Source: Siphonodentalium dalli (lineage: Eukaryota > Mollusca > Scaphopoda > Gadilida > Siphonodentaliidae). Taken from it: 64,000 nucleotides of DNA. Shown here one piece after another: positions 720-63,529 of the stretch. The position numbers and the translations under genes are program-made. The notes under the pieces are model-generated. The model saw nothing but the letters and a program-made list of their open reading frames with translations, ran no database searches and was not told the DNA's origin. The stretch's first letter is position 1, and each line of letters starts with the position of its first letter. Location of the stretch: positions 192,782,052 to 192,846,051 of the forward strand of contig CP136067.1 of NCBI GenBank assembly GCA_032622095.1, in the 5' to 3' direction.

Positions 720-881
720 AATCTAGAAAATCGCTATAAATTTGGCAAGTTTAATTCAAGCTATCTAAAGTCCGTATATATACATCAATATTATGTGTAT
801 TTATCTATCTGTATATCTCCGGCTCTTTCCAAATTACGTAGTCATAATACGGAGGTTCAAATCAACCCTTTCATGACTAGA

Positions 882-1090: not shown

Positions 1091-1447
1091 CAGGGTTTTC
1101 GCAAAATTTCAGGAAGCTCCTGCCATGGAAGGGTTGAGGACCATGCACAGATGACCGTTCGATCGCAGTCATTCATCAAATGCACTTCCGGTTCCGTCTC
1201 TATCGAATTAAGTTCCGACTCTTTCGCCATGTGTAAACAATTATTAAGTTTTGATAGGCTGTTTATACACTGAACGTCAATACAGAAAGTATTCTCCAAT
1301 AACAATCGACAGATTAGGTATTTGATGATAAGATTTTCGGCCTTATAACATTTAAATTTGGCTGGAACTTGTCAGGTTTTATGATCGAACATTAAGATAT
1401 TATAATGCAATACCTCCCGACGGTTCCTCGCAGTACTATTCCTTCAA

Positions 1448-2822: not shown

Positions 2823-2951
2823 GGTCTTTTACTATGAGGAGCCGCCGAGGGGTGTTCTGTGATAGTGTCGTGCAGTTCGATCATACAATGAGACATGGTC
2901 CAGCCCTATTAAAAGGCGACAAGGCCCATAAACTGATCATGAAATTGTTGC

Positions 2952-3437
2952 TTAAAGGTACTCAATCCGATAAAACTCCTCTCAATTACTATTTCAATGG
3001 CTTCGGGGGTCAAAAATATTTGATTCGAGTCGAGGAAGTCACCCATCAAAGCTCAGATTTGTTAGATATCGATTTTAGAAATCTATTATTTTTCATTATC
3101 GGGAATTCTTTCTGGCCCAGAAGACAGTCAAAATTTCGTTATTATTACCACTTGATTATAGAGTTATCCATCCTTGTCTGTTTGAATAGAGTTTTGGCAT
3201 AAATCTCGAGCAGGTTACCAAATTGACGGCAGTTATTAGTACTCATCTCGAGCAATTAACAAATTTCAAAAATCAATATCTAATAACTCTGAGCTTTGTT
3301 TGATGGGTTCCTCGACTCGAATCAAATATTTTTTACCCCCAAAGCCAAAAAAATAGTAATATAGGACCCTCTGATCGGATTGTTGTTGTTGGAATCTGTT
3401 GAGATGGGGACCCTCTTTACGGATTGAGTACCTTTAA
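2952..3437. mobile_element. TTAA-flanked piggyBac-type MITE
   Basis: The left end is TTAAAGGTACTCAATCCGAT and the right end is the complement GGATTGAGTACCTTTAA. The ends are bounded by TTAA, the target preference of piggyBac-type transposases. The internal short open frames have no recognisable domain. Confidence 0.7.
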
Positions 3438-3752
3438 TTCACATAGGAAATGCACACAAGCGCATTACGCCTTTAAGTATGCACACAAATACATTATTTC
3501 GCATTATTATCACCAATAAGCACGATCAAAGGCCTAATCAACGGATACTTGTTTAGAAATAGTTGTGTTTTGACATTTAGTATATAAATGGCGGTAAAAA
3601 CTTTGATAATATTTGATTTAAATCGCGAAAGAGTCGGGACTTAATACGATAGAGACAGAACCGGAAAGGCGATAGAATCGATTTTTGTGAAACAGTTTCC
3701 CCCCAGTGAAATGTGCCCGTCCTCGTCGACATATTTATGCAATTTTTGAAGC

Positions 3753-4213
3753 GTTAAAGGTACCCAGTCCGATCAGACGGTCCCCATATCATCAAGTTAC
3801 CACAACAACAACATTTCTTCAAAATAAGCTTTAGTTATCAGAATCGATTAATTACAACAAAATAATGCTAACACTGAACTAAGGTATAAAATTTCTCAAA
3901 ACGTGTTATTTATCAACAAGTTGTTAAACGAAATTTGGCCGTATTATCACTTGATTATCACGAAATTTGGCCGTATTACCACTTGATTTTAGAGTTTTAC
4001 ATATTCATCCGTAAATTGATCGGTTTGACGAATATTTGCCAGGTGGAAAAAAGTACGTATCTCGAGAAATAACATATTTCAAAAATCGATATCTGATCAC
4101 TCTGTGCTTTGATGAGTGGGTTCATCTACTCGACTCATATCAAATATTTGTTTTATTCCCGAATCCAAAGAAATAGTAATTTAGGGGTGTTTAATCGGAT
4201 AATGCATCTTTAA
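3753..4213. mobile_element. TTAA-flanked MITE, diverged copy
   Basis: The left end is TTAAAGGTACCCAGTCCGAT and the right end is a decayed version (GGATAATGCATCTTTAA). The interior has the family block with CATCAAGTTACCACAACAAC and AGTTATCAGAATCGATTAAT. Confidence 0.6.
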
Positions 4214-4349
4214 GTTTACTATGGTTAAATGATGTTCATTTACTCGACATAAAATGCGGTATGTATTTCCAGTAACACCATAGGCGACTTCTCTGCATGG
4301 TGTTTTACTCTTTCTTAACTGAGTGGATTCCCCAATCCGCTATAAAAAG

Positions 4350-10461: not shown

Positions 10462-11682
10462 TCACTGCTCTTGACTAGCAACGCAAAAATAGAGTAATGT
10501 GCCAGCTGCAAAGGCTATCGAAAACATCCAAGAAAATATAGTGTCAACTGTCATTGAAATACAACGCCACGTAATAGGAGGCAATTGTTTAATCCCGCCC
10601 CCGTCGTCACACGTCCCGTAATCATTGGCTGTTTTTTGGCCCTTCTTCGTCCATTCTTTTAAAGCGACGACAAATTTAGGCACTTCATCTGTTCGCTTCG
10701 AAAGTGAGGTCGTCACGGCTGCCAGAATCACTGTCGTGGCACTCATGACATAGAGACACCCTATATAGATGATTAAATACGGTATACGTTCTCCATTCGG
10801 CGGGAACGTCGACGAAATGTAGCTATGAACTACAGAGAACGATAGTAAGATCGTGAGGTTAGCTCGGGCTTTGTCGGTGGTTTCCGGTGGAATCTTGAAG
10901 AAACATATGTTGAGCAATGATAAAACGAGAATCGGAAGTATCGTAGTGATAACTATTGTAAGGGAACGCCTCTCTAGTTTTATTGTGTACAAAATCCAAG
11001 GATACGTTAAATCTCCAACTTTAGTGTCGGTGCTAATTTTAGACGATGTTCCCTTTATTTCCCATTCCGAATTGGTCGCGTAGAAAGTTGTTCCATTTAA
11101 TACGTCAGCGAAGTCTTCGTCCAATGAAATATTGATCATACGGCTATCGAAATTAGAAGACCCGAACTTCAGTGTGCATGTTTGTACATCGAAGGGGAAA
11201 TGTGTCGTATCAATCTGACAGTAACTTGCCACGTGACCGCCTGGGTACCAAACTGTATCTCCTGTATGATGAATAAGCATAAACTCCCTGCTCCACGTGG
11301 GCACATTGGAAGCGCGGTCGCGGGTGTATAGAGGCATTAGGTCCGGTGTCCAGAAATTTGCCACAGGAACGTGTATATATGTCAAATTCCCGAATTGGGC
11401 AGGATCCCATTTAGTGAACTCATTGGTCCAGATCATTCTAATAAATAGGTCGACTGAGATATACTGCTCGATCTGGTTCAGAGTGATAACACTGAATAAG
11501 TTTACTGATGCACGCACCATCATGGCTTGGTCATCGTTATCTACCGGAATAAGTTCGGGTTTGCTGCGATTTCTAATGAAATCGTATAAATCCGCTCTAC
11601 TCGAGGCTGAGGACTCACATATCCGTAAAAGCACAACGGAAAACACGAGAGAAAACGGTAGACAAAGTTGCAGCAAAACCAT
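10462..11682 (-). CDS. Divergent nicotinic acetylcholine receptor-like (Cys-loop) subunit, intronless
   Basis: A complete 406-residue pentameric ligand-gated ion-channel subunit in one exon. A hydrophobic signal peptide covers residues 1-27. The ligand-binding domain carries the diagnostic Cys-loop (C155 and C169 separated by 13 residues, with FPFD inside) and N-glycosylation sites at 99, 184 and 196. Four membrane helices lie at about 239-263, 271-292, 300-325 and 379-400. The M3-M4 loop is short (about 50 residues), so the protein is shorter than most family members. There is no adjacent Cys-Cys pair before M1, so it is not a classical alpha subunit. Aligning DK at the start of M2 with the canonical -1'/0' positions puts Leu280 at the 9' gate and an unusual Arg273 at 2'. 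The start is the first Met before the signal peptide. The ligand is unknown. Large lineage-specific expansions of such receptors are known in molluscs. It could be a silent retrocopy, but the frame is intact. Confidence 0.92.
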   Translation of the reverse strand: MVLLQLCLPFSLVFSVVLLRICESSASSRADLYDFIRNRSKPELIPVDNDDQAMMVRASVNLFSVITLNQIEQYISVDLFIRMIWTNEFTKWDPAQFGNLTYIHVPVANFWTPDLMPLYTRDRASNVPTWSREFMLIHHTGDTVWYPGGHVASYCQIDTTHFPFDVQTCTLKFGSSNFDSRMINISLDEDFADVLNGTTFYATNSEWEIKGTSSKISTDTKVGDLTYPWILYTIKLERRSLTIVITTILPILVLSLLNICFFKIPPETTDKARANLTILLSFSVVHSYISSTFPPNGERIPYLIIYIGCLYVMSATTVILAAVTTSLSKRTDEVPKFVVALKEWTKKGQKTANDYGTCDDGGGIKQLPPITWRCISMTVDTIFSWMFSIAFAAGTLLYFCVASQEQ

Positions 11683-11805
11683 ATTGTTGTAGTATACTAC
11701 GGTCGTCTCAAAAATAACTATAAATCAGCTCTCCTGGAGACTGAAGACTGACACATCCACAACACCACGACGAGAAATCAGAGAGAAAACGGCAGAGACA
11801 ATTTA
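11588..11805. repeat. Duplicated segment spanning the receptor 5' end
   Basis: The stretch at 11588-11672, which encodes the receptor's N-terminal signal region, is about 75% similar to 11728-11805 immediately upstream of the gene. Shared landmarks are TATAAATC(C/A)GCTCT and GAGAGAAAACGG. A weaker match sits at about 23,725-23,795. This indicates a local duplication or a repeat incorporated into the coding sequence. Confidence 0.65.
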
Positions 11806-44028: not shown

Positions 44029-44034
44029 CCGCTA
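44029..44034. repeat. Target-site duplication, left copy (CCGCTA)
   Basis: Exact 6-bp match to 59,561-59,566, immediately outside the palindrome. Confidence 0.8.
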
Positions 44035-44394
44035 TGATGATAGGGGGTCTGGCTGGGGTATAAGGGGGCGTGTCTTAAGCTCCCCCAATTTCTAAAGGTT
44101 CCACAATGCGTCAATGGGTCCTTTGTCCCCCTTTGTTTCGCCCTATTGTCTTAATGGGCCAATGGTAGGGATTTATTAGGGGTCCTTATTGTATGAAAAC
44201 CCATCCTTTTCCTTCTCACTTATATGATAGGTAGAATGAATTAATGAAGCCCCTCCTTTTCGTTCTTAATTATTTGATAGGTTTTAATTAATTAAAGTCG
44301 CTCATTCTTAATTATATGATAGGGTACCGAAACTCCTCCTTATTCGACTCAACAATGGCCACCAGAATTATTCTGATAACCGAGCGCCAATGAT

Positions 44395-44600
44395 AGAACC
44401 ACACGTGAATCGTGCACCTGCTTAGACCGCGCGTTTTCGATGCACCTGCATAGTCACCTGGTTAGACCACGCTATCCTGAAACAATGGAATAGTGCACCT
44501 GGTTAGACCACGCTATCCTGAAACAATGGAGTACCGCCACAATTATTTAGCGTCACGCACGCCTCGTGCACCTGCTTAGACCGCGCGTTTTCGAAAGCGT
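44395..44600. repeat. Subterminal interleaved direct repeats (left; mirror 58,995-59,200)
   Basis: GTGCACCTGCTTAGACCGCG appears twice and CACCTGGTTAGACCACGCTA twice, interleaved. Multiple short subterminal repeats are the usual arrangement of transposase-binding sites. Confidence 0.7.
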
Positions 44601-44679
44601 GCCCAAACCTGACTAATTTATTCACCCACACCACACGTTCCCCGAACAATGGAATTCATATCTGCATTTGATGGTTGAA

Positions 44680-44915
44680 TATTAAATGCTATGTCTGGTT
44701 GAATATTAACTGCTATGTCTGGTTGAATATGTGAAGAAGGGCCGTTTTGATGGTCATTTTGGAGCTTATTAATTATATTTCAGTAAACTTTCGTACCCGT
44801 AACCGCTGGTTGAATGCTAGCTACATTTGCTGGTTGACCATTAGCTGCGTTCGATGGTTGAATATTAGCAGTTTTGTCTGGTTGAATGTTAGCTGCGTTT
44901 TCTGGTTGAATGTTC
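44680..44915. repeat. 24-bp tandem repeat (left; mirror 58,680-58,915)
   Basis: Repeated TCTGGTTGAATATTA and GCTGCGTTCGATGGTTGAAT units of about 24 bp. The apparent periodic peptide (WLN every eight residues) is a by-product. Confidence 0.75.
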
Positions 44916-45539
44916 CCCTCACACACCCTCACACATGAGCAACACATGTATATGATGAATGTGTAACTGCTATAATTATTGAAATTCTCTTAAATCTCGT
45001 TTGCTTTCCAAAATGTCAATTAACAAACATAATCATACATGGGTTGTGTGTATATATGACCATTTCACTCCCGTCCAACAGTATGTTTAAACATCATATA
45101 AAATTCGAGCCTTCCGGAGGTTAAATGAATCACAAATCGCGCGTTCTTAGAATATGAAAACCGAGCATTGTGGAAATAATTATATTCAAAAGTTTATCTG
45201 TTTTATCAGACAACATGTCATTTGGCAAACATCTAGCGTATATTCAATAGACGCTATTATATACAGTTGCATTTACTATATAAAGTTTATCATAAAGAAA
45301 CAGCGTGAACAGTTCGAAAATCTGCTTTCATCTAATTCATTTGAAATTTTTACTCAATGCGCGTCAATCAATTGGACAATCGATAATAGATTTGACATAT
45401 GCACTCTTTGTAAACAAATTGAAGTTATCTCCACCTGTCCCGTCTGACATTGTCCATTCGATGCAACAATGTATGAATGGAGTTACTGATTGTTATTCAC
45501 TTCATAAATGGTTCATATAGCGTACTATTATACTTGTGG

Positions 45540-46470
45540 ACACTTACCTTAAAGGTACACGTCACTTTAACCTAATTCAGCGTATCCATCGATATAAACG
45601 CTCTTTAGTTTCAAAAAGTGTCTGAATCTCTATCGTTTACTAAAGTATGTTTAAAATTGAGCATTTAAACCTAATGGAACTATAAATAATAAATAAAAAA
45701 CGCTCTTTATTTTCAAAATTGTCTGAATTTTGATATTGATTTTAGCAATATGCATGCTTTCATTCATATGAAATTGCCATCATGGACGTTAAATGACAAC
45801 ATCTCTTAGCATATTAGCCTTAAAGTTATACGTCACGCGTACATTCGATGCACAAGTTAACACATTACATATATGGTTGAACATATCAACCATAGTAAGC
45901 TCATTTAAACAAAATGGTATTCAATTTAAACGCAGGTTAATTCGATGCAGCAATGTATGAATGTAGGGTTTTGCTTTGTCATTACTCCAGAAATGGTTCA
46001 GACGATACACTACATTTGGTTCACATACCTTAAAGGTACCCGTGATTTAAACCTAATTATTCATTAATAAAACGCTCTTTATTTTCAAAATTATCTGAAG
46101 GTCCCATCGTTTTGTAAGTTATACGTAGCGTGTTCATTCGAGGTAACCCTGTACGAAATGAAGGTAATCGTTGTGTTATTCACTTCATAAATGCGTCATA
46201 CGCTGGACCACATTTGGGTCACGTGCCTTAAAGGCACACGTCACTTTCGGAAATTATATAATCAGATAATACATTACATATCAGGTTGGACGTATCAACC
46301 ATATAAAGTTCATTTAATTCATTGGGTCTTTCAAATTATACGTCACGTATTCATTCGGGATACTAATGTAGGAAATGAAGGTATTGATTGTTATTCACTT
46401 CATAAATGGCTCCCATTTCCTATAATAGCGGACTATTATACCTTAAAGGTACACCTCATTTAAATATAAT
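45540..46470. repeat. Long-period degenerate repeats (left; mirror 57,125-58,055)
   Basis: About five spaced copies of CCTTAAAGGTACACGTCACT, each accompanied by TTCACTTCATAAATG and/or AACGCTCTTTATTTTCAAAA, spaced about 200-280 bp. Confidence 0.7.
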
Positions 46471-46855
46471 GCAGCGTGTCCATCAAAACAGACGCTCGTA
46501 GTATTGTAACCCGCGGTCGATTGTTTCGTTTCTGTTAATGATACGGTGTTATTTACTTTAAAAAATGCGCCCTCACTCTTCACTTTGACTAATATGCAAG
46601 CATTTGTATCATTTAGAATGTCAAAATCTGGTTCAAAGCAGTCGTATTTGTTATATATAAGGCAAATTTCCTTTCAAATTATAACATATTAAAACTATGC
46701 ATAAATGTTATGTACTTGGAATATGATAGGTCTCCATGGCCTTATTTGGACATATAATCTAACCGAGCGATGTTCATTCTCTAATCGATTACGTGTCTAT
46801 AGAATATTGAGGGTAGATTAAGCATACTAAGATCCAGGTAGACAGTCTATATTCG

Positions 46856-47420
46856 GGCCTCATTTTATGGGGCCTTTGTCTCTATGAACATATAGTCTTA
46901 ATTTTGGGGCCCTTTGTCGTATTTCTATGGATCTATTGTCTGTGTAATTCTATGGACCTATTGTCTGAAATAAGGGGCCTTTGTCTGTGTAATTCTATGG
47001 ACCTATTGTCTGAAATACGGGGCCTTTGTCTGTAATTCTATGGACATATTGTCTGAAATACGGGGCTTTTGTCTGTGTAATTCTATGGATCTATTGTCTT
47101 AATTATGGGACCCTTTGTCAGTGTAATTCTATGGATCTGTTGTCTTAAATACGGGACCTTTCGTCTGTATATTTCTATGGATCTATTGTCTGAAATACGG
47201 AGCCTTTGTGTATTTCTATGGACCTATTGTCTGAAATACGGGGCCTCTGTCTGTGTAATTCTATGAATCTATTGTCTTAATTCTGGGACCCTTTGTCAGT
47301 GTAATTCTATGGATCTGTTGTCTTAAATACGGGACCATTTGTCTGTATATTTCTATGGATCTATTGTCTGAAACACAGGGTCTTTGTCTGTGTAATTCTA
47401 TGAACCTATAGTCTTACAAA
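46856..47420. repeat. 44-bp minisatellite (left; mirror 56,175-56,739)
   Basis: About twelve degenerate copies of TGTAATTCTATGGACCTATT followed by GTCTGAAATACGGGGCCTTT. Confidence 0.9.
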
Positions 47421-48103
47421 ACCTTTTGTTCTGTTCATAAACCACACGGTAAGCTATTTATAGATATGGGATAACAAGCGATTTTATGCCTAAAGAAGTA
47501 GGAACTGAGGTTCTGTATTCTTGTCACCAAGTATATGTAGTTTAAATCCTCTAAATATCGTCTGTTATACAGAAGAACGATTGACCATGTGACAGTCTCA
47601 TGTCACAAAAGACCTATTATGGGGACACATTTCATTCCCCAAAAACGGTATATATAGGTGGGTATCAAACATTGGTCTGGAAAAGACATGGCATATGGAC
47701 GTGGGTATTTACTAGATGTATTTTTTAAACGTTCATTTCATATACGTGAACTCTTTATTGTTGTTCAACTTTTTAATTGGTAACCAATTATCGTATATAC
47801 TTTTGTTTGGAGTGTTCATATACATCACTATACGAAACACAGCTTCTAATAAACTAGTCGATGGTTAAATCACCACAGCCAATATCCCCAACGGTAAGCT
47901 ATTTTTTAGCGCATGGGGTACATTCATGACTAAAGAAGAAGGAAATGAGGTAAATTATACTTTATTATTTGATCACTTAACACACAGAACAGGTTTTGCT
48001 GACTCGCTCTGTGTAACCTATTTCTAGTATGTAGCAGTATGTTCAGCAAACACAGGTAAGCGACGCCTACGGTTGTAAGTGGTACTCGTCAGTGATCACT
48101 GAG

Positions 48104-48709
48104 TTAGGTATGTGGTTCAGAACCAAGCTTTTTAGTTTTCAGTGTATAATCACCATAATTCCTGATTATTCCCAAGGTCCAAATGAGTTCACTATCTAGT
48201 TCTGAAATAGTTTTAGTTGTGTTTACAATGTAATCCAATACTAGTTGTTCATTAAACATCTTTTCAATCGTGAAAATTTCACAAGGTTCTGGGAGAATGA
48301 TGTAACCGCATATTGATGTTTCTTCTTCGAATATCCGACTTCTTTCATTGAAAAACACGTCCTTGTAAACAGAAATTCGAACAAAGTTATCTCCAACGAG
48401 TTCACGAATCCCACGTATATCGTTATTTTTAGCAATACCTCTAATTAGCCAACAGTCAGAGAACAGTTGATCCACAATATCTAGTAAGAAATCTGTTTCA
48501 AATTCTGTTCTCTCCAACAAAGATTCCAATCTCTCTCTACCATCAACAAAATGTCCTTCCAAAATTAACTTTATTATTAGCTTCTCCTCCCTTCGAAACC
48601 AAGTTTGCTGTAATTCATTCTTGATTTCTTCACATAGTGTTGATGAGTTAACTAATGCTTTGTACACTTTCTGACGCATTTCTGCTGGTAGCATATCAAT
48701 TACCTCCAT
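48104..48709 (-). CDS. Hypothetical 201-aa protein, left-arm copy
   Basis: The only substantial ORF in the arm, read outward. The start MEVIDMLPAEMRQKVYKALV gives a helical, charged N-terminal half; no signal peptide or membrane helix. The centre contains DNFVRISVYKDVFFNERSRI and then CGYIILPEP. That order (hydrophobic strand, D-V-x-F-x-NE, later strand with x-P) loosely recalls the D-V-R-F-x-NE segment of phage T4-type deoxynucleoside monophosphate kinases. No P-loop is visible, so I do not assign that function. It lies between the 44-bp minisatellite and the 329-bp repeats. The protein is identical to the right-arm copy. Codons are AT-rich, with a GAA/GAG and ATA load unlike the receptor gene. 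Confidence 0.7.
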   Translation of the reverse strand: MEVIDMLPAEMRQKVYKALVNSSTLCEEIKNELQQTWFRREEKLIIKLILEGHFVDGRERLESLLERTEFETDFLLDIVDQLFSDCWLIRGIAKNNDIRGIRELVGDNFVRISVYKDVFFNERSRIFEEETSICGYIILPEPCEIFTIEKMFNEQLVLDYIVNTTKTISELDSELIWTLGIIRNYGDYTLKTKKLGSEPHT

Positions 48710-48959
48710 AAGTCCTTACGAAACACTCTGTTTATTCGAGGTAATCCACTACAACACAGGGTATTGATCGTGAGTTTCTCACAAAATTAGCACCAGTGTT
48801 ATACAATCGGTGCTCATACTGTACATAGCGTTCACACTCTAAAGACGTTCGGAAAAGTATTTATTTCTTATTATACTATGTATAACAACCAATCAAAACC
48901 CGTCGTTCAATTTAACTATACACGGACAAGCGGTATGATAACAACCGTACAACAACTTG

Positions 48960-49800
48960 ATGTATACTAGTCATATTACATATTATTATTCTAAAATCTC
49001 CATTACATGGAGTGAAATAAAGAGCGTATATGATGTAGACTGGTGTATAAATACTTAGTTATTTCTTTTTATCAATTACATGTATTGTAACTCCTATAAA
49101 TATAGTCTGTTATACCGAGTAAACATGTACCACGTGGAAGTCTCACGATAGGCATACTATGTGAAAACATGTGCATATCACATATTCTTTTTACCGTTCA
49201 TCCGTACGTAATCCAACCTCTCTGTTAATACACAGGCATCAAACCATTGGTGTGGAAAAGACCTACTATGTGAATGCGTGTATTTACTTGATGTATACTA
49301 GGCCATTCATATTATTACTCTGAAATCTCCATTGCATGGAGCAAACTAAAGAGCGTGTATGGCGTAGACTGGTGTATACATGCTTAGTGATTTCTTTCCA
49401 TCAATTATATGTATTGTAACTCCCATAAATATAGTCTGTTATACAGAGTAACCATGTACAACGTGACAGTTTCACGATAGGTCTACTATGTGAAAGCATG
49501 TGTATATCACATATGTTTTTGCAATTCATTCGTATATAATCCAAGCTCTCTGTTAATACAGAGGCGTCAACACATTGGTGTGTAACAGACCTACTATGTG
49601 GACGCGTCTATTTGCTTGATGTATACTGGTTCATTCATAGTATTACTCTAAAATCTCCATTACATGGAGCAAAATAAAGAGCGTATACGATGTATTCTTT
49701 TCATAAATTATATGTATTTTGACTCCTGTAAATAGTCTGTTATACAGATAAACCGTGTACCACGTGACGGTCTCGCAAAAGGTGTATACACATGTATTCA
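48960..49800. repeat. 329-bp tandem repeat, about 2.5 copies (left; mirror 53,795-54,635)
   Basis: CATGGAG(T/C)(G/A)AA(A/C)TAAAGAGCGT recurs at about 49,007, 49,336 and 49,665. Each is followed by a TAGTCTGTTATAC block and a TACTATGTG(A/G)A block. A diverged partial unit lies at about 47,540-47,900 beyond the ORF. Confidence 0.8.
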
Positions 49801-50529
49801 ATGTATTCTTTAATAAGTCATTTCTCTATTATTTTCGTTCATTTTAGTAGTAATATTGGTAGAAATGTAGTCTGAAATCGTCTGTATAGCGTCATATAGC
49901 TTTATTGGTGAATACGTCCATATTTCTTAAAGTACAGTACATATTCATAATGTCAGGCATTATCAGCCAACTATTTATAGAAATACCTGTTATATGAGAT
50001 CATATCGTAGCTGAATCTGGGATGCGACCTACCTCAACGGCGAAGTGCGCTCAAATGAAGTTACACATATTATATGAGCCATTATATGGATCGATGAGGT
50101 GTTATCTCAGTATGTCCGTACAATATTAGTGAACTACACCCCCTACCTATTACGTATACCAAGCGAGCGAAACAAACATGACATATCGATTATGTATATA
50201 TAGTGATGAATCTATGCCTGGTCTCACAGACAAATGTTCATATTTAGAGTAAATACATATGTGTATCCTTTAATGTAATGTCAGCAAATGTATAGAAACG
50301 CAGCGTTCAAAATAGTAAAAAGTATACATTTTTTACTTAAAATTTCATTGTTTATGGTTAATTTCCTGTTATGAAACGTGTCATTTTATAAACGCGTAAT
50401 ACGCAATAAAAAAAATACCTGTTTGACAAAACTTTTAAACGCTATTATGACTATATTTGGCGAATAAAAAAGGGGCTATTTGACGTAGTACAACAACGCG
50501 AAATGACTACTTTTTTAAACGCGAATTTG

Positions 50530-50590
50530 AAACAAAACTAATATACAAAAGAATTTTAAACAAAACTAATATACAAAAGAATTTTAAACT
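50530..50590. repeat. 28-bp direct repeat (left; mirror 53,005-53,065)
   Basis: CAAAACTAATATACAAAAGA plus ATTTTAAA is repeated twice next to the 186-bp module. Confidence 0.8.
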
Positions 50591-50770
50591 AAATAATAAG
50601 TTTGGTTGATGTATTTTCTCACAAAGAAGCGCTCGTATACGATGTAGCGGTATGTTACAGAGTTATCGTTCTTTTCGAGGCTAAAAAAAGCGCAGACCGG
50701 CCCCTCCCTCTCCCCCCATTTTAAAAGGGGCGGGGTTAAGGGGAGCGATCGCGCGTCACGAAAAAATGTC
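50585..50770 (-). repeat. 186-bp GC-rich module, left-arm copy
   Basis: Inverse of 52,825-53,010. Contains a CCCCGCCCC GC-box-like core, CGTGACGCGCGATCGC and a purine-rich GGGGGGAGAGGGAGGGG run, in contrast to the AT-rich surroundings. Possibly a promoter or origin; not shown. Confidence 0.75.
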
Positions 50771-51300
50771 ACCCCCATTTTACACATAACCCTTCTACAT
50801 ATTTACCACAATTCTACTTTTACCCTTACCCAATATAACCCCTTCCCTTCCGAACTTCTTATGTCCCTGTCATTTCCTATAAGTTTACACCATTCTTCAT
50901 GTGTTCTCCTTTTTACTACTGTGTCCTTAATACACAAACCCCCAAGTTCATACACATATACGTAATACTTTCCAGTTATTCTCTGCTTCATGTTTACTCT
51001 TTTGTCGCGTTACATCCCCCTATGTTTTCGACCAACTGCTTACACCTAAATTATATATATATATGTCCCTTTTTACCCATCTCGTTCCCTCTTCACCCCA
51101 GTTGATATGATTTAGTTATACCTTTTCCCCTATAGCCCACTTTTCTCACTCCCTCTGCTTTCCTCTACCTGATACCATTTTATTTTCTATACTATTTTAA
51201 GCCCCTTGCCGGCTCTTACCCTCTAATTACTGTCTGCAATCATAGTTACCCCTCTCCTTCCAAAGCAAAACCCCCACATTTCATATGATTTAGGTATATA

Positions 51301-52294
51301 CTCAATGATTATTCTTATCTCATCTACTTTAATTATGTACATGTCCCCCACCCCAGCTCTCCGCTATACACCTCTATTCATTGTACCCAATACCCCATTT
51401 ACCTTTATCCACATAACCACCTTTCATTCTTTTTTACCTTCCCCTTTTGTACCTCTAAACACTTTGTTCTTCCCACAACAATCCCAATGTTTTCCTAGGA
51501 AAATAATGCTTACTACTCAATGTTTTCTCCAAATTATACCCTTCTGCTCCCATTTACTTGCCTCTCACTCTCCCCATCGCCTTCCCCTTTTTACACATGT
51601 ATAAACCTCTGTTTAGTGGCTTTTCTTAGCCTCCTATATCTTCGCTATACACCTCTATACACTCTCCCACTGCCCTTTTACCCCTTTTTCCCTTTCATTC
51701 TTTTCATGTCTCCCTTTTCCCATTTTATACAACTCTTATTTTACCTCTGTTCTACCCACAACAATCCCAATGTTTTCCTAGGAAAGTAAGGCTTACACCT
51801 CAATGTTTTCTCCAAATTATACCCTTCTGCCCCAATTTCTTGCCTCTCGCTCTCCCCATCTCCTTCCCCTTTTTGCACCATATACATGTATAAACCTATA
51901 TTGAGTGGCTTTTCCTAGCCTCCTAAGCTCTTCACTATATGTTAATTCATATATTAAAAACCATGAACAGTGTACACTACCTAATCCATTATCATCTCCA
52001 AGTAATACACGGTCATATCATCCCATCCCTATTTCCCACACTCCATTACCCCTCATACTGTGTCGTTTCCCCCATCCATTTCCTCTGACTTATACTTTTC
52101 TTCTATGACATTTTTTCGTGACGCGCGATCGCTCCCCTTAACCCCGCCCCTTTTAAAACGGGGGGAGAGGGAGGGGCCGGTCTGCGCTTTTTTTAGCCTC
52201 GAAAAGAACGATAACTCTGTAACATACCGCTACATCGTATACGAGCGCTTCTTTGTGAGAAAATACATCAACCAAACTTATTATTTAGTTTAAT
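51301..52294. other. Asymmetric centre of the palindrome
   Basis: The only part of the element without an inverted partner. 51,350-51,930 is two diverged 283-bp direct repeats (ACAACAATCCCAATGTTTTC, CTCTCCCCATC), strongly pyrimidine-rich on the plus strand. The rest is AT-rich, ending in a third 186-bp module. Open frames here are low-complexity and unconvincing. Confidence 0.75.
52107..52292 (+). repeat. 186-bp GC-rich module, unpaired third copy
   Basis: Direct repeat of 52,825-53,010 with one visible difference (AAAACGGGG versus AAAATGGGG). Ends two bases before the right arm begins, so the inner 532-bp segment is bracketed by direct module copies on the right only. Confidence 0.85.
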
Positions 52295-52824
52295 ATATAC
52301 CTAAATCATATGAAATGTGGGGGTTTTGCTTTGGAAGGAGAGGGGGTAACTATGATTGCAGACAGTAATTAGAGGGTAAGAGCCGGCAAGGGGCTTAAAA
52401 TAGTATAGAAAATAAAATGGTATCAGGTAGAGGAAAGCAGAGGGAGTGAGAAAAGTGGGCTATAGGGGAAAAGGTATAACTAAATCATATCAACTGGGGT
52501 GAAGAGGGAACGAGATGGGTAAAAAGGGACATATATATATATAATTTAGGTGTAAGCAGTTGGTCGAAAACATAGGGGGATGTAACGCGACAAAAGAGTA
52601 AACATGAAGCAGAGAATAACTGGAAAGTATTACGTATATGTGTATGAACTTGGGGGTTTGTGTATTAAGGACACAGTAGTAAAAAGGAGAACACATGAAG
52701 AATGGTGTAAACTTATAGGAAATGACAGGGACATAAGAAGTTCGGAAGGGAAGGGGTTATATTGGGTAAGGGTAAAAGTAGAATTGTGGTAAATATGTAG
52801 AAGGGTTATGTGTAAAATGGGGGT

Positions 52825-53010
52825 GACATTTTTTCGTGACGCGCGATCGCTCCCCTTAACCCCGCCCCTTTTAAAATGGGGGGAGAGGGAGGGGCCGGTC
52901 TGCGCTTTTTTTAGCCTCGAAAAGAACGATAACTCTGTAACATACCGCTACATCGTATACGAGCGCTTCTTTGTGAGAAAATACATCAACCAAACTTATT
53001 ATTTAGTTTA
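52825..53010 (+). repeat. 186-bp GC-rich module, right-arm copy
   Basis: Mirror of 50,585-50,770. A 67-codon frame stays open through all three copies but has no recognisable protein character; the module is short and GC-box-like, so I favour a non-coding role. Confidence 0.75.
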
Positions 53011-54885
53011 AAATTCTTTTGTATATTAGTTTTGTTTAAAATTCTTTTGTATATTAGTTTTGTTTCAAATTCGCGTTTAAAAAAGTAGTCATTTCGCGTT
53101 GTTGTACTACGTCAAATAGCCCCTTTTTTATTCGCCAAATATAGTCATAATAGCGTTTAAAAGTTTTGTCAAACAGGTATTTTTTTTATTGCGTATTACG
53201 CGTTTATAAAATGACACGTTTCATAACAGGAAATTAACCATAAACAATGAAATTTTAAGTAAAAAATGTATACTTTTTACTATTTTGAACGCTGCGTTTC
53301 TATACATTTGCTGACATTACATTAAAGGATACACATATGTATTTACTCTAAATATGAACATTTGTCTGTGAGACCAGGCATAGATTCATCACTATATATA
53401 CATAATCGATATGTCATGTTTGTTTCGCTCGCTTGGTATACGTAATAGGTAGGGGGTGTAGTTCACTAATATTGTACGGACATACTGAGATAACACCTCA
53501 TCGATCCATATAATGGCTCATATAATATGTGTAACTTCATTTGAGCGCACTTCGCCGTTGAGGTAGGTCGCATCCCAGATTCAGCTACGATATGATCTCA
53601 TATAACAGGTATTTCTATAAATAGTTGGCTGATAATGCCTGACATTATGAATATGTACTGTACTTTAAGAAATATGGACGTATTCACCAATAAAGCTATA
53701 TGACGCTATACAGACGATTTCAGACTACATTTCTACCAATATTACTACTAAAATGAACGAAAATAATAGAGAAATGACTTATTAAAGAATACATTGAATA
53801 CATGTGTATACACCTTTTGCGAGACCGTCACGTGGTACACGGTTTATCTGTATAACAGACTATTTACAGGAGTCAAAATACATATAATTTATGAAAAGAA
53901 TACATCGTATACGCTCTTTATTTTGCTCCATGTAATGGAGATTTTAGAGTAATACTATGAATGAACCAGTATACATCAAGCAAATAGACGCGTCCACATA
54001 GTAGGTCTGTTACACACCAATGTGTTGACGCCTCTGTATTAACAGAGAGCTTGGATTATATACGAATGAATTGCAAAAACATATGTGATATACACATGCT
54101 TTCACATAGTAGACCTATCGTGAAACTGTCACGTTGTACATGGTTACTCTGTATAACAGACTATATTTATGGGAGTTACAATACATATAATTGATGGAAA
54201 GAAATCACTAAGCATGTATACACCAGTCTACGCCATACACGCTCTTTAGTTTGCTCCATGCAATGGAGATTTCAGAGTAATAATATGAATGGCCTAGTAT
54301 ACATCAAGTAAATACACGCATTCACATAGTAGGTCTTTTCCACACCAATGGTTTGATGCCTGTGTATTAACAGAGAGGTTGGATTACGTACGGATGAACG
54401 GTAAAAAGAATATGTGATATGCACATGTTTTCACATAGTATGCCTATCGTGAGACTTCCACGTGGTACATGTTTACTCGGTATAACAGACTATATTTATA
54501 GGAGTTACAATACATGTAATTGATAAAAAGAAATAACTAAGTATTTATACACCAGTCTACATCATATACGCTCTTTATTTCACTCCATGTAATGGAGATT
54601 TTAGAATAATAATATGTAATATGACTAGTATACATCAAGTTGTTGTACGGTTGTTATCATACCGCTTGTCCGTGTATAGTTAAATTGAACGACGGGTTTT
54701 GATTGGTTGTTATACATAGTATAATAAGAAATAAATACTTTTCCGAACGTCTTTAGAGTGTGAACGCTATGTACAGTATGAGCACCGATTGTATAACACT
54801 GGTGCTAATTTTGTGAGAAACTCACGATCAATACCCTGTGTTGTAGTGGATTACCTCGAATAAACAGAGTGTTTCGTAAGGACTT

Positions 54886-55491
54886 ATGGAGGTAATTGAT
54901 ATGCTACCAGCAGAAATGCGTCAGAAAGTGTACAAAGCATTAGTTAACTCATCAACACTATGTGAAGAAATCAAGAATGAATTACAGCAAACTTGGTTTC
55001 GAAGGGAGGAGAAGCTAATAATAAAGTTAATTTTGGAAGGACATTTTGTTGATGGTAGAGAGAGATTGGAATCTTTGTTGGAGAGAACAGAATTTGAAAC
55101 AGATTTCTTACTAGATATTGTGGATCAACTGTTCTCTGACTGTTGGCTAATTAGAGGTATTGCTAAAAATAACGATATACGTGGGATTCGTGAACTCGTT
55201 GGAGATAACTTTGTTCGAATTTCTGTTTACAAGGACGTGTTTTTCAATGAAAGAAGTCGGATATTCGAAGAAGAAACATCAATATGCGGTTACATCATTC
55301 TCCCAGAACCTTGTGAAATTTTCACGATTGAAAAGATGTTTAATGAACAACTAGTATTGGATTACATTGTAAACACAACTAAAACTATTTCAGAACTAGA
55401 TAGTGAACTCATTTGGACCTTGGGAATAATCAGGAATTATGGTGATTATACACTGAAAACTAAAAAGCTTGGTTCTGAACCACATACCTAA
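54886..55491 (+). CDS. Hypothetical 201-aa protein, right-arm copy
   Basis: The translated protein is identical to that at 48,104-48,709, again read outward from the centre of the palindrome. The start codon ATG follows CGTAAGGACTT and is the first in the frame. As in the left arm there are no other plausible genes in several kilobases of arm. Conservation of an intact 201-codon frame in both arms, in otherwise repetitive DNA, argues for a real gene or for very recent arm homogenisation. Function unknown. Confidence 0.7.
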   Translation: MEVIDMLPAEMRQKVYKALVNSSTLCEEIKNELQQTWFRREEKLIIKLILEGHFVDGRERLESLLERTEFETDFLLDIVDQLFSDCWLIRGIAKNNDIRGIRELVGDNFVRISVYKDVFFNERSRIFEEETSICGYIILPEPCEIFTIEKMFNEQLVLDYIVNTTKTISELDSELIWTLGIIRNYGDYTLKTKKLGSEPHT

Positions 55492-58400
55492 CTCAGTGAT
55501 CACTGACGAGTACCACTTACAACCGTAGGCGTCGCTTACCTGTGTTTGCTGAACATACTGCTACATACTAGAAATAGGTTACACAGAGCGAGTCAGCAAA
55601 ACCTGTTCTGTGTGTTAAGTGATCAAATAATAAAGTATAATTTACCTCATTTCCTTCTTCTTTAGTCATGAATGTACCCCATGCGCTAAAAAATAGCTTA
55701 CCGTTGGGGATATTGGCTGTGGTGATTTAACCATCGACTAGTTTATTAGAAGCTGTGTTTCGTATAGTGATGTATATGAACACTCCAAACAAAAGTATAT
55801 ACGATAATTGGTTACCAATTAAAAAGTTGAACAACAATAAAGAGTTCACGTATATGAAATGAACGTTTAAAAAATACATCTAGTAAATACCCACGTCCAT
55901 ATGCCATGTCTTTTCCAGACCAATGTTTGATACCCACCTATATATACCGTTTTTGGGGAATGAAATGTGTCCCCATAATAGGTCTTTTGTGACATGAGAC
56001 TGTCACATGGTCAATCGTTCTTCTGTATAACAGACGATATTTAGAGGATTTAAACTACATATACTTGGTGACAAGAATACAGAACCTCAGTTCCTACTTC
56101 TTTAGGCATAAAATCGCTTGTTATCCCATATCTATAAATAGCTTACCGTGTGGTTTATGAACAGAACAAAAGGTTTTGTAAGACTATAGGTTCATATAAT
56201 TACACAGACAAAGACCCTGTGTTTCAGACAATAGATCCATAGAAATATACAGACAAATGGTCCCGTATTTAAGACAACAGATCCATAGAATTACACTGAC
56301 AAAGGGTCCCAGAATTAAGACAATAGATTCATAGAATTACACAGACAGAGGCCCCGTATTTCAGACAATAGGTCCATAGAAATACACAAAGGCTCCGTAT
56401 TTCAGACAATAGATCCATAGAAATATACAGACGAAAGGTCCCGTATTTAAGACAACAGATCCATAGAATTACACTGACAAAGGGTCCCATAATTAAGACA
56501 ATAGATCCATAGAATTACACAGACAAAAGCCCCGTATTTCAGACAATATGTCCATAGAATTACAGACAAAGGCCCCGTATTTCAGACAATAGGTCCATAG
56601 AATTACACAGACAAAGGCCCCTTATTTCAGACAATAGGTCCATAGAATTACACAGACAATAGATCCATAGAAATACGACAAAGGGCCCCAAAATTAAGAC
56701 TATATGTTCATAGAGACAAAGGCCCCATAAAATGAGGCCCGAATATAGACTGTCTACCTGGATCTTAGTATGCTTAATCTACCCTCAATATTCTATAGAC
56801 ACGTAATTGATTAGAGAATGAACATCGCTCGGTTAGATTATATGTCCAAATAAGGCCATGGAGACCTATCATATTCCAAGTACATAACATTTATGCATAG
56901 TTTTAATATGTTATAATTTGAAAGGAAATTTGCCTTATATATAACAAATACGACTGCTTTGAACCAGATTTTGACATTCTAAATGATACAAATGCTTGCA
57001 TATTAGTCAAAGTGAAGAGTGAGGGCGCATTTTTTAAAGTAAATAACACCGTATCATTAACAGAAACGAAACAATCGACCGCGGGTTACAATACTACGAG
57101 CGTCTGTTTTGATGGACACGCTGCATTATATTTAAATGAGGTGTACCTTTAAGGTATAATAGTCCGCTATTATAGGAAATGGGAGCCATTTATGAAGTGA
57201 ATAACAATCAATACCTTCATTTCCTACATGAGTACCTCGAATGAATACGTGACGTATAATTTGAAAGACCCAATGAATTAAATGAACTTTATATGGTTGA
57301 TACGTCCAACCTGATATGTAATGTATTATCTGATTATATAATTTCCGAAAGTGACGTGTGCCTTTAAGGCACGTGACCCAAATGTGGTCCAGCGTATGAC
57401 GCATTTATGAAGTGAATAACACAACGATTACCTTCATTTCGTACAGGGTTACCTCGAATGAACACGCTACGTATAACTTACAAAACGATGGGACCTTCAG
57501 ATAATTTTGAAAATAAAGAGCGTTTTATTAATGAATAATTAGGTTTAAATCACGGGTACCTTTAAGGTATGTGAACCAAATGTAGTGTATCGTCTGAACC
57601 ATTTCTGGAGTAATGACAAAGCAAAACCCTACATTCATACATTGCTGCATCGAATTAACCTGCGTTTAAATTGAATACCATTTTGTTTAAATGAGCTTAC
57701 TATGGTTGATATGTTCAACCATATATGTAATGTGTTAACTTGTGCATCGAATGTACGCGTGACGTATAACTTTAAGGCTAATATGCTAAGAGATGTTGTC
57801 ATTTAACGTCCATGATGGCAATTTCATATGAATGAAAGCATGCATATTGCTAAAATCAATATCAAAATTCAGACAATTTTGAAAATAAAGAGCGTTTTTT
57901 ATTTATTATTTATAGTTCCATTAGGTTTAAATGCTCAATTTTAAACATACTTTAGTAAACGATAGAGATTCAGACACTTTTTGAAACTAAAGAGCGTTTA
58001 TATCGATGGATACGCTGAATTAGGTTAAAGTGACGTGTACCTTTAAGGTAAGTGTCCACAAGTATAATAGTACGCTATATGAACCATTTATGAAGTGAAT
58101 AACAATCAATAACTCCATTCATACATTGTTGCATCGAATGGACAATGTCAGACGGGACAGGTGGAGATAACTTCAATTTGTTTACAAAGAGTGCATATGT
58201 CAAATCTATTATCGATTGTCCAATTGATTGACGCGCATTGAGTAAAAATTTCAAATGAATTAGATGAAAGCAGATTTTCGAACTGTTCACGCTGTTTCTT
58301 TATGATAAACTTTATATAGTAAATGCAACTGTATATAATAGCGTCTATTGAATATACGCTAGATGTTTGCCAAATGACATGTTGTCTGATAAAACAGATA

Positions 58401-59560
58401 AACTTTTGAATATAATTATTTCCACAATGCTCGGTTTTCATATTCTAAGAACGCGCGATTTGTGATTCATTTAACCTCCGGAAGGCTCGAATTTTATATG
58501 ATGTTTAAACATACTGTTGGACGGGAGTGAAATGGTCATATATACACACAACCCATGTATGATTATGTTTGTTAATTGACATTTTGGAAAGCAAACGAGA
58601 TTTAAGAGAATTTCAATAATTATAGCAGTTACACATTCATCATATACATGTGTTGCTCATGTGTGAGGGTGTGTGAGGGGAACATTCAACCAGAAAACGC
58701 AGCTAACATTCAACCAGACAAAACTGCTAATATTCAACCATCGAACGCAGCTAATGGTCAACCAGCAAATGTAGCTAGCATTCAACCAGCGGTTACGGGT
58801 ACGAAAGTTTACTGAAATATAATTAATAAGCTCCAAAATGACCATCAAAACGGCCCTTCTTCACATATTCAACCAGACATAGCAGTTAATATTCAACCAG
58901 ACATAGCATTTAATATTCAACCATCAAATGCAGATATGAATTCCATTGTTCGGGGAACGTGTGGTGTGGGTGAATAAATTAGTCAGGTTTGGGCACGCTT
59001 TCGAAAACGCGCGGTCTAAGCAGGTGCACGAGGCGTGCGTGACGCTAAATAATTGTGGCGGTACTCCATTGTTTCAGGATAGCGTGGTCTAACCAGGTGC
59101 ACTATTCCATTGTTTCAGGATAGCGTGGTCTAACCAGGTGACTATGCAGGTGCATCGAAAACGCGCGGTCTAAGCAGGTGCACGATTCACGTGTGGTTCT
59201 ATCATTGGCGCTCAGTTATCATAATAATTCTGGTGGCCATTGTTGAGTCGAATAAGGAGGAGTTTCGGTACCCTATCATATAATTAAGAATGAGCGACTT
59301 TAATTAATTAAAACCTATCAAATAATTAAGAACGAAAAGGAGGGGCTTCATTAATTCATTCTACCTATCATATAAGTGAGAAGGAAAAGGATGGGTTTTC
59401 ATACAATAAGGACCCCTAATAAATCCCTACCATTGGCCCATTAAGACAATAGGGCGAAACAAAGGGGGACAAAGGACCCATTGACGCATTGTGGAACCTT
59501 TAGAAATTGGGGGAGCTTAAGACACGCCCCCTTATACCCCAGCCAGACCCCCTATCATCA

Positions 59561-59566
59561 CCGCTA
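59561..59566. repeat. Target-site duplication, right copy (CCGCTA)
   Basis: Exact match to 44,029-44,034, directly abutting the right terminus. Confidence 0.8.
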
Positions 59567-59571
59567 ATTAT

Positions 59572-61165
59572 TGTCCCCCGACGTTCTTCCGTCCGTCACA
59601 CTTTTGAGTACCTTCATGGTGTAATCATCTCCTCCTACAGATTTCATCCCAGAGATTTGAAACTTCAGAATATTGTTGCCCATATATTGAAGATATAAGA
59701 TATAAAAATCATTTTTATACGCCCTTTTGAAAAAAAGGCCGTATTATAGTATTGGTCTGTCCGTCCGGGCGGGCGGGCGGGCGTCCGTCCGTTCGTCCGT
59801 TAACCTGTTGTCCGGATGATAACTTTAGTTAGAGTGAACCAAAATTAGTAAAATTTGGTATGTGGGTTTATTAGCCGAAAAGTAAGTTCAAGTTCGAATT
59901 TGGGTTCCGCCCGCCAATTTTCACCGGAGTTATGCCCCTTATTTAACGTTTTTTTACTTAGAAAATCCTTGAAATTTGTTGTCCGGATGATAACTTTAGT
60001 ATAGTTTATCGGAATGAATCCAAATTTGGTATATTACTTTCGCCCACCAAAACACAGGTCAAGTTCGAACATGGGTTCTGTCCGACCTTTTTTGGCAGAG
60101 TTATGCCCCTTTTTCGACTCAGAAAATTCAGTTTTTCTTATGTTTTTTGGTTTCCGGATGATAACTCGATTTTGGAATGTTTATACGCAAAACCCGTTTT
60201 TTTGTGGATTACATATATCGAAATACAGCTCAAGTCCGAATTTCGTTTTAATCCGATATTTTTTGCGAGAGTTATGGCCCCTTTTTTGACGTAATTTGAC
60301 TTAGAAAATCCCTGAAATTTGTTGTCCGGATGATAACTTTAGTTAGAGTGAACCGATTTCAATCAAATTTGGTATGTGTGTTTATTAGGAGAAAAGACAG
60401 CTCAAGTTCGAATTTGGGTTCCGTCCGCCAATTTTCACCGGAGTTATGCCCCTTATTTGACGTAATTTGACTTTGAAAATCCCTGAAATTTGTTGTCCGC
60501 ATGATAACTTTACTAGAGCTTATCGGATTCAATGATAATTTGGTATATTACTTTCTCCCACCAAAACACAGGTCAAGTTTAAATTTGAGTTCCGTCCGCC
60601 AATTTTTACCAGAGTTATGCCCCTTTTTGATCAGTTTCCGCCGACCCAAGAGAGGGCGTATATTGCACGCCCAGCGTAGCTCTTGTTTGACGGAGTTATT
60701 AACCCTTTTCGACTTTTAGAATTTCAACATTTTTTATAATTTTCAGTATGAGGGTACGTACCTTTATTGTGTAATCAACTCCTCCTACAGTTTTCATCCT
60801 AGAGATTTGAAAATTCAGAATATTGTTGCCCATATATTGAAGATGTGCAACATGTATATAGATGACGGAAAAATTATTTTTGACGGAGTTATTAACCCTT
60901 TTCGACTTAGAAAATTTCAACATTTTTTATAATTTTCTGTATGAGGGTACCTTCATGGTGTAATCAACTCCTCCTACAGTTTTGATTGTAGATATTTGAA
61001 ACTTCAGAGTATTGTTACCCACATATTGGAGATGTGCAACATGTATATAGATAACGGATATTATTATTTTTTAGGGAGTTGTTAACCCTTTCACCTTAGA
61101 ACATTTCAACATTTGTTTAAATTTCTTTAACAAAGCGGCATCGACTTGTCGGGGGACACTGTGGT
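59572..61165. repeat. Interspersed repeat cluster with GTCCCCCGAC ends
   Basis: Starts near TGTCCCCCGACGTTC and ends near CTTGTCGGGGGACAC, an inverted pair. Inside are three copies of the CTTCATGGTGTAATCA(A/T)CTC module (59,620, 60,760, 60,950) and about four copies of TGTTGTCCGGATGATAACTT. The left part holds a CTGTCCGTCCGGGCGGGCGG tract. The open frames are repeat translations. Confidence 0.6.
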
Positions 61166-62478: not shown

Positions 62479-62883
62479 ATGAAAGCCGTTCGAGTAACCG
62501 AATTATTAGCCGATATCGCTGATAAAAAGATACCTATGCTATATATTGGTACTATAAAAGGAAAATATAACGCGGTTATATTACGAGCATATATAATAGA
62601 TCAAAGAATAAAGAATAATACCAAGAAAGCAAAGGCCAACACTCTATATCGACCGGCTATTCTGCGTCAAAAAAGAAAAACCGCGGTATCAACCCAGCAA
62701 TATAACGTACTATCAAAAGTATCAAGGAAGCGCAAACAAATCCTTCAACCCAGAACAGACATATATCCGGAAAAAGAACCTATAATGGATAATATAGCAT
62801 CACCGTGGGACCAACCAGATCTATACTGGGACGTTATACCGGATATAGATACAAAAGTACCTTTTACCGAAATTTTTATATGA
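62479..62883 (+). CDS. Hypothetical 134-aa basic protein
   Basis: A complete intronless frame, first ATG after the TATA box. The N-terminal 45 residues (MKAVRVTELLADIADKKIPM, then alternating hydrophobic residues and IKGKYNAVILRAYI) could form a small alpha/beta fold. The middle is very basic (KNNTKKAKA, RKRKQ), suggesting nucleic-acid binding. The acidic, aromatic tail contains SPWDQPDLYWDVIPDID. No recognised domain. It ends only 18 nt before the kinase start, on the same strand, so the pair could share a transcript. ATA-rich codon use differs from PFDN5 and the receptor. Function unknown. Confidence 0.65.
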   Translation: MKAVRVTELLADIADKKIPMLYIGTIKGKYNAVILRAYIIDQRIKNNTKKAKANTLYRPAILRQKRKTAVSTQQYNVLSKVSRKRKQILQPRTDIYPEKEPIMDNIASPWDQPDLYWDVIPDIDTKVPFTEIFI

Positions 62884-62901
62884 TTCTAGGAGGGAAACAA
62901 A

Positions 62902-63529
62902 ATGGAAGGAAGCAAATACACAGTGTGCGTAGAAGGTAATATAGGGGCCGGAAAAACGACTTTCCGTAGTTATTTTCAAGAGGATCCGCGAGTGAGTATA
63001 AACGCGGAACGCTTTGGAATTAATGTATATGAACGCAAAAAGGTGGGCAATGACGTTTCAATCCTACGTTCAATTGACGTCTACCGAACGCCACAAACAA
63101 GAAACTACCGAGCCGATAAAAATTATGGAAAGGTCACTATACAGCGGACATTATATATTTACAGAAAATATGTTTCGAAACGGCAACCTGACCGAAATAG
63201 AATATAATATTTTGACGGAATGGTTCGTGTCCCTTTTGGAAAACTCGTATATAAAAGCCGACCTTATTATATATTTACGAACAAAACCGCAAGTTGTCGC
63301 TGACAGGATTAAAACACGAGCCAGAAAGGAGGAAGAGACGATAAATTTAGAATATATTCAATCGCTTCACCAATTGCACGAGGAATGGCTTATAAAACAG
63401 ACAAAGTTTTTAGTACCGGCTCCCGTTATCATACTCGATGGTAACGTAAATGCGGCAGAGATGAAAAATATTATCCGACGTAATATAGACGGAATTTTAT
63501 GCGGGTATTCCGAAACCTCGCAAAAATAA
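62902..63529 (+). pseudogene. Deoxynucleoside kinase, broken (dNK/TK2 family)
   Basis: Family enzymes phosphorylate deoxynucleosides for DNA synthesis. The start frame gives the P-loop GNIGAGKT at residues 12-19. The homology then stops near codon 33 and resumes in a different frame (from about 63,005) with LMYMNAKRWAMTFQSYVQ, the ERS motif in MERSLYSGHY, and an Arg-rich lid around RIKTRARKEEETI, ending at TAA 63,527-63,529. The segment expected between the two parts, with the substrate-side P-V-x-x-W motif, is missing, so this is a frameshifting deletion rather than one extra base. No adequate intron fits. AATAAA overlaps the stop. A sequencing or assembly error is possible. It resembles animal-type enzymes, which several large DNA viruses also carry. 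Confidence 0.8.

Follow-up and report, generated by a model that had tools for sequence, protein, structure and literature searches.

A palindromic Maverick derivative in the scaphopod Siphonodentalium dalli, probably remade by snap-back replication

The window analyzed here is a stretch of 64,000 nucleotides from the genome of the scaphopod mollusk Siphonodentalium dalli (C7:192782052-192846051; GenBank assembly GCA_032622095.1, contig CP136067.1, forward strand). It contains an inserted palindrome of 15.5 kb. We consider it likely that this insert is a non-autonomous derivative of Maverick (Polinton) elements, remade by snap-back replication, integrated in trans and belonging to a lasting satellite lineage that carries its own gene. 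Descent from Mavericks is well supported by the sequence comparisons below. From the same comparisons we infer the replication step and the satellite role of the lineage. The genome is represented by one 2.23-Gb assembly of 9 contigs, and copies elsewhere in it are given short names such as C8_188.8.

The palindrome had been proposed in an earlier sequence-only reading of the window, and it is real (Table 1). The two arms align over 7,267 columns with 99.88% identity, and only 8 substitutions and one 1-nt gap separate them. They had been described as mirroring each other base for base. The symmetry is indeed near perfect, but the simple mirror stops near 51252 and continues with a 1-nt shift up to 51300. 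Outside both ends lies an exact target-site duplication (TSD) of 6 bp, CCGCTA, as had been claimed. The same reading recognized no transposase, integrase or polymerase. A six-frame Pfam search of the element agrees, finding neither an integrase nor a protein-primed DNA polymerase B, and no capsid, protease or packaging ATPase either. What had been overlooked is a conserved gene of 201 residues, present once in each arm.

The center of the palindrome carries traces of an older state. The 191-bp inner arm piece is present once more, inverted, adjoining the inner end of the right arm. Six relatives (C4_12.9, C5_192.1, C1_214.8, C5_115.2, C7_38.8 and C7_139.8) have arms that end at the equivalent of position 50771 and loops of about 1.33-1.40 kb. 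Hence, the innermost ~530 bp of the arms in the window look like a later extension into the ancestral loop. This loop is G-poor on one strand, with a GC skew of -0.62 within 51001-52000.

Both ends of the palindrome come from a Maverick. The outer ~0.62 kb of the arms matches both ends of C8_188.8, a Maverick of 16,343 bp, at 95.6-96.7%, while the remainder of the arm has no match in C8_188.8. The earlier suggestion of a non-autonomous relative of an integrase element with 6-bp TSDs is thereby supported, since the arm ends are the terminal repeat of a Maverick in the same genome with a retroviral-type integrase. C8_188.8 and a second copy, C6_21.6, are about 16 kb long, carry Maverick-type open reading frames (ORFs) and are not palindromic beyond terminal repeats of ~0.67-0.73 kb (668 aligned bp). 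In the Maverick copy L010 the integrase core matches Pfam rve at 2.3e-11, and its matches in the PDB are retroviral integrases, plus chromodomains at the C-end. C3_190.9, C6_21.6 and other relatives also possess the integrase. PHROGs searches of the Maverick ORFs gave nothing beyond transposase-like integrase matches. A 414-residue ORF of C8_188.8 may encode a capsid protein. Because both ends of the insert are Maverick terminal repeats, the integrase of resident Mavericks, and by extension their polymerase, could act on it in trans.

The comparison with Mavericks elsewhere shows likenesses and differences. According to the available text of PMC8097293, vertebrate Mavericks are 12.7-24.6 kb long and have TSDs of 6 bp and terminal inverted repeats (TIRs) of 46-1447 bp. 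Their ends repeat a triplet twice, which that text links to jumping back during protein-primed initiation. The element in the window shares its terminal repeat with an integrase-bearing Maverick, has a 6-bp TSD and a doubled terminal triplet, and with 15.5 kb falls within this length range. However, its arms measure 7.27 kb, and only their outer ~0.62 kb is Maverick TIR. It lacks a recognizable integrase or polymerase and instead holds one gene of unassigned function, present twice. The terminal triplet is TGA compared to AGT or AG in the vertebrate motifs given there. Within the genome the end triplets vary: TGATGA in the window family, three TGA units in C6_21.6 and AGCAGC in a second subfamily.

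Mavericks in this genome also form palindromes of their own. C3_190.9 mirrors the right part of a Maverick, positions 16343-9331 of C8_188.8, at 99.1%, and each of its arms holds integrase and ATPase ORFs. The left part is mirrored in C9_120.2, over positions 1-5030 around a 313-bp loop. At its junction the strand reaches 5343 and returns from 5030, with an overlap of 11 columns, 10 of them matching. Among the best 114 of 3,448 integrase candidates there are 10 inverted neighbor pairs less than 15 kb apart (20 hits). All five pairs inspected by sequence are palindromic about their center, C3_190.9 and four others. These four come from a second family of Mavericks, with an integrase identity of about 64%; they are 99% alike and fold at different positions. 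Junction overlaps in this family are 7 bp (L057), 7 bp (L060) and 0 (L058). Three Maverick junctions (C9_120.2, L057 and L060) therefore lie at inverted microhomologies of 7-11 bp. A similar event is seen in C3_155.4, a close relative of the window element: a fresh fold-back inside the old loop, with a 45-nt loop and a 2-bp overlap. The inner ends of C3_155.4, C4_12.9, two C2 copies and C1_214.8 were taken from BLAST coordinates. A nascent strand that snaps back repeatedly would leave such varied fold-backs and the ~530-bp arm extension.

The proposed mechanism would work as follows. Protein-primed synthesis would start at a terminal repeat. If the nascent strand stalls, its 3' end could anneal to an inverted microhomology in the same strand, from where it would be extended back to its own start. 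The product would have the same terminal repeat twice and could be replicated and integrated by Maverick proteins, with a 6-bp duplication. In the copying of a palindrome that already exists, a nascent strand that has passed the center may switch to its own first arm, which would make the arms alike in each cycle. The sequence-only reading had considered that a linear replicon with hairpin ends integrated as a head-to-head dimer. Of this idea, our proposal retains a linear replicon folded back into a head-to-head form; the replicon would be of Maverick type with terminal repeats, and there is no sign of closed hairpin ends, since the terminal folds are no better than those of shuffled sequence.

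The arms carry a gene whose ORF has 201 codons counted from the first methionine and 203 between stops, and it is the only clear ORF in the arms. Only 1 of 500 dinucleotide shuffles of the arm reached this length. A protein search with the ORF gave 1,495 candidates, and among the best 150 of them 110 hits form 55 divergent pairs. The list has no convergent neighbors, two same-strand neighboring pairs and 40 unpaired hits. Stop codons are absent from 125 of these 150 copies. Several copies lie within 0.45 Mb (G000:C3:18173450-18621554), perhaps a local duplication cluster.

The copies fall into two main groups. One is mostly 91-100% identical to the query, with a decayed tail down to 69%, and the other lies at 62-65%. 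C2_203.0, from the second group, measures 16.0 kb and is a palindrome whose arms are 99.9% alike in the inner part that was read. Its arm and loop meet at the position known from the first group, and its loop is 88% alike; the C+T-rich ancestral loop (50772-52105 in the window) is thus kept at that level in the second subfamily. The proteins of the two subfamilies are about 64% identical, and the ratio of nonsynonymous to synonymous substitutions (dN/dS) between them is 0.38. Between the window element and C2, 2 of 606 sites differ in the ORF, compared to 112 of 4306 in the rest of the arm interior (Fisher 7e-5). Judged by these substitutions, the gene is under purifying selection. It had no match in Pfam or, by sequence, in the PDB.

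The two subfamilies differ in their ends. C2_203.0 ends in AGCAGC and does not match the ends of C8_188.8. Instead, over ~590 bp its ends match at 92% those of another Maverick, C5_224.9, which measures 17.7 kb and has a 6-bp duplication, Maverick-type ORFs and an integrase 71% identical to the query. Of 16 end pairs of this second type that were found, 12 hold copies of the ORF. Hence, each of the two related palindromic groups bears the ends of a different Maverick. Since the lineage is palindromic across two subfamilies, has its own selected gene and bears the ends of two Mavericks, we read it as a satellite that follows its helpers. The conserved gene suggests more than a by-product, and it may serve the satellite.

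Alternatively, each palindrome could be a one-off defective by-product and the ORF a captured host gene without a role, in which case there would be no satellite lineage. Mavericks do produce one-off palindromes (C3_190.9 and C9_120.2), and the ORF has no assigned function. Against this stand the boundary shared by two subfamilies at such protein divergence, the dN/dS value, the many paired copies and the two kinds of Maverick ends. We regard this alternative as unlikely, although it is the strongest of those considered.

How the arms evolve bears on how they stay alike. Arm interiors were compared at seven loci of the first group, with C2 counted as two and the mosaic outer 0.75 kb of the arms left out. 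The two arms of a single copy differ at 6, 6, 12, 32, 9, 19 and 20 sites. In 20 comparisons between different insertions, the copies differ at 2-103 sites where each has both arms fixed. Splits between left and right arm that are shared by two insertions number 0 sites in 19 of these comparisons and 1 site in the remaining one. One pair serves as a control. C2_198.05 and C2_197.9 are one insertion duplicated together with its flanks (right flank 399/400; left flank 256/400 ungapped, with an indel). This pair shows 30 single-arm changes, 6 inherited left/right splits and 1 copy-fixed change. Since the pair keeps its single-arm changes, the arms drift separately in the chromosome, and homogenization takes place at or before insertion. 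Arms that change together between insertions yet drift apart afterward imply that each copy starts out near perfect.

A competing explanation is a giant-TIR element moved by cut-and-paste or by an integrase, its arms kept alike by chromosomal gene conversion in the manner of the large palindromes on sex chromosomes. Palindromes are well known to undergo conversion, which would also give differences fixed in both arms and few shared splits. The C2 duplicate speaks against it, with 30 changes confined to one arm and 6 splits retained against a single copy-fixed change. Conversion also leaves unexplained the differing fold-back centers of the Mavericks and the new 45-nt loop in C3_155.4. We judge this explanation a little less probable than the by-product.

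The flanks bear on the stage at which the palindrome forms. The sequence-only reading had proposed a search of the genome with the arm end, and this search recovered other copies with the same ends, different flanks and 6-bp duplications. The terminal 206 bp gave 189 candidate places; the best 40 match at 92-100% and are mostly +/- pairs 10-23 kb apart. Other genome lists comprise the best 150 of 1,495 candidates for the ORF, 114 of 3,448 for the integrase and 40 of 203 in a further one. Ten further +/- pairs were fetched as halves, and ends or centers of others, so that both ends were read for 21 insertions. An exact 6-bp TSD is present at 19 of the 21 and, counting palindromes only, at 13 of the 14 read. 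C2_198.05, whose TSD has one mismatch, was counted together with C2_197.9. Among the 18 insertions compared, all duplicated hexamers are different. The chance of a 6-bp match at a fixed place is 3.4e-4 at this composition. TSDs that recur with other letters at nearly every insertion exclude chance and make an assembly fold very unlikely. A terminal repeat at both outer ends with an exact TSD outside means that the palindrome itself is the unit that integrated.

Palindromes might instead form only once a Maverick has integrated, through inverted duplication in the chromosome or break repair beside it. Inverted duplications through template switching at replication forks are on record (in the portions available of PMC10766183 and PMC4689423), and one palindrome has no TSD. 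The terminal repeats at both ends and the exact duplications outside 13 of 14 palindromes make such an origin highly improbable. An assembly artefact (reads that fold back where an adapter was missed, or a head-to-head join of haplotypes) is the least credible reading of all: palindromes are a known artefact of long-read libraries, but folds do not yield 6-bp duplications with a different flank on either side, an arm/loop boundary that recurs in many insertions and in both subfamilies, or 6-32 interior differences between arms.

Several observations weigh against a satellite remade by snap-back replication. The replication step is deduced from the sequence of one assembly. Two of the five measured junctions have only 0-2 bp of microhomology, and the junctions of C3_190.9 and L059 could not be assigned a position in a parent element. 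A non-palindromic parent of the arm interior did not turn up. TSDs are absent at the palindrome C3_293.4 and at the Maverick-like pair C4_12.5. The separate drift of the arms is seen in one insertion; moreover, the arms of C3_155.4 do not group in the tree (its branches are near zero), and C3_155.4 differs from C4_12.9 and from C5_192.1 by only 2 fixed sites each. In the Mavericks themselves, matches to DNA_pol_B_2 (1e-4; 4e-5 in C8_188.8) and to A32/AAA-like ATPases (6e-4, 1e-3) remain below the Pfam cut-offs. The fold of the 201-residue protein is not predicted well (AlphaFold2 without an alignment, mean predicted local distance difference test score 36). Finally, the first query was the end of a palindrome and the lists hold best hits, so the shares given here are not genome-wide rates.

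Other known systems were compared as well. Symmetric and defective adenovirus genomes, like other fold-back products of protein-primed replication, are palindromes that keep one origin at both ends and involve a nascent or displaced strand folding back. The palindromes described here are likewise left-left or right-right with the same origin at both ends, here known from integrated sequence. They differ in being integrated in an animal genome with TSDs, in a lineage that lasts through many insertions and in a selected gene. Foldback elements of the P superfamily have TSDs of 7-9 bp and P-type ends, whereas the window element has a 6-bp TSD and Maverick ends. The foldback transposons Galileo and Tetris, as described in the available text of PMC4168063 and PMC4079207, also have long inverted repeats, tandem arrays in the arms and non-autonomous copies. 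In contrast, the window family has Maverick-type ends, TSD and relatives, and its arms are much longer and, in young copies, near perfect.

Virophages and provirophages resemble the proposed satellite in the idea of a smaller element that depends on another virus-like element. However, the window element has no recognized capsid or polymerase gene, its genome is a mirror image, and its helper would itself be an integrated Maverick. Virophages are related to Mavericks, according to the part of PMC6431247 consulted. Among the titles and abstract openings listed by word searches of the open-licence literature, none describes a palindromic Polinton or an animal satellite of an integrated virus-like element.

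Other candidates for the element were rejected. Herpesvirus-like inverted repeats were one of them; six frames of arm and center have no Pfam match below E 0.4, and the best lies far under the cut-off. Ends of the long terminal repeat type would need a second direct copy of the end sequence, which the element does not have. Ginger elements have TGTNR ends and 4-bp TSDs (PMC2836005, as far as its available text goes), compared to TGATG and 6 bp here. Rfam and tRNA searches, and searches of phage records and viral contigs, gave no informative match.

Table 1. Features of the palindromic insert, in window positions
Feature	Position	Strand	Basis or remark
Target-site duplication CCGCTA, left copy	44029..44034	.	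read from sequence
Target-site duplication CCGCTA, right copy	59561..59566	.	read from sequence
Left arm	44035..51300	+	alignment to right arm
Right arm, reverse complement of left arm	52294..59560	-	alignment to left arm
Unpaired center of present element	51301..52293	.	arm alignment
Maverick-derived terminal repeat, left arm	44035..44658	+	95.9% to left end, 96.7% to right end of C8_188.8
Maverick-derived terminal repeat, right arm	58937..59560	-	95.6% and 96.4% to C8_188.8 ends
Terminal trinucleotide twice, TGATGA	44035..44040	+	read from sequence; compare vertebrate Maverick end motifs in available text of PMC8097293
Terminal trinucleotide twice, right end	59555..59560	-	read from sequence
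201-residue conserved ORF, left copy, including stop codon	48104..48709	-	
201-residue conserved ORF, right copy, including stop codon	54886..55491	+	
45/46-bp tandem array, left arm	46936..47414	+	mirror copy 56181-56659
191-bp innermost piece of ancestral arm	50581..50771	+	its end is the arm/loop boundary in relatives
Ancestral loop, about 1.33 kb, strongly C+T-rich	50772..52105	+	first ~530 bp now in arms
Extra inverted copy of 191-bp piece	52106..52296	-	

The resident Mavericks carry further genes and variants. Cargo includes an IAP-like gene with BIR and RING (L014:2855-3481), a TBP-like gene (L014:3791-4324) and a PC4-like gene (L013:2042-2524), which to our knowledge are unusual for Mavericks. 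C2_196.0 (G000:C2:196005759-196023005) is a Maverick in which 1,579 bp of the left end stand in place of the right end, which makes its terminal repeats longer. Its ends suggested a left-left palindrome, but this was rejected, as the center is ordinary Maverick sequence. L065 (G000:C1:121662850-121669550) measures 6.5 kb and has the TSD CACCGT; its inverted ends, 1.24 kb long, are of the second type. By eye its 203-residue ORF resembles the PC4-like ORF, and L065 may represent a further kind of short Maverick derivative.

The rest of the window is animal genome, with ion channel and deoxynucleoside kinase genes. A ligand-gated ion channel ORF at 10465-11724 (minus strand) is acetylcholine-receptor-like, with no introns in the matched part (Neur_chan_LBD, 1.6e-37). 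The deoxynucleoside kinase gene at 62479-63529 (plus strand; dNK, 3.6e-39) lies near the right flank of the insert. Tandem arrays occur at 4346-7179 (2.8 kb, 52-bp units with 33-bp subarrays) and at 59806-61124, where two satellite-like arrays with units of 171 and 189 bp begin 240 bp beyond the right end of the insert.

The replication of Mavericks has so far been deduced mainly from their polymerase. Integrated palindromes, fold-back junctions, terminal triplets and the joint evolution of arms would make a model of this replication testable from genome sequence alone. Arms of 7 kb are also a hard test for assemblers and for the tolerance of germ cells toward long palindromes. Going further, we see about an even chance that these elements are long-lived, mirror-image satellite viruses or transposons of Mavericks, with one arm recopied from the other in each cycle, helper ends exchanged and a selected gene of their own that perhaps exploits or restrains the helper. 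In that case the arms would directly record, in the genome, Maverick replication by strand displacement with snap-back of the nascent strand. An animal satellite of an integrated virus-like element would, if true, add a further layer of parasitism.

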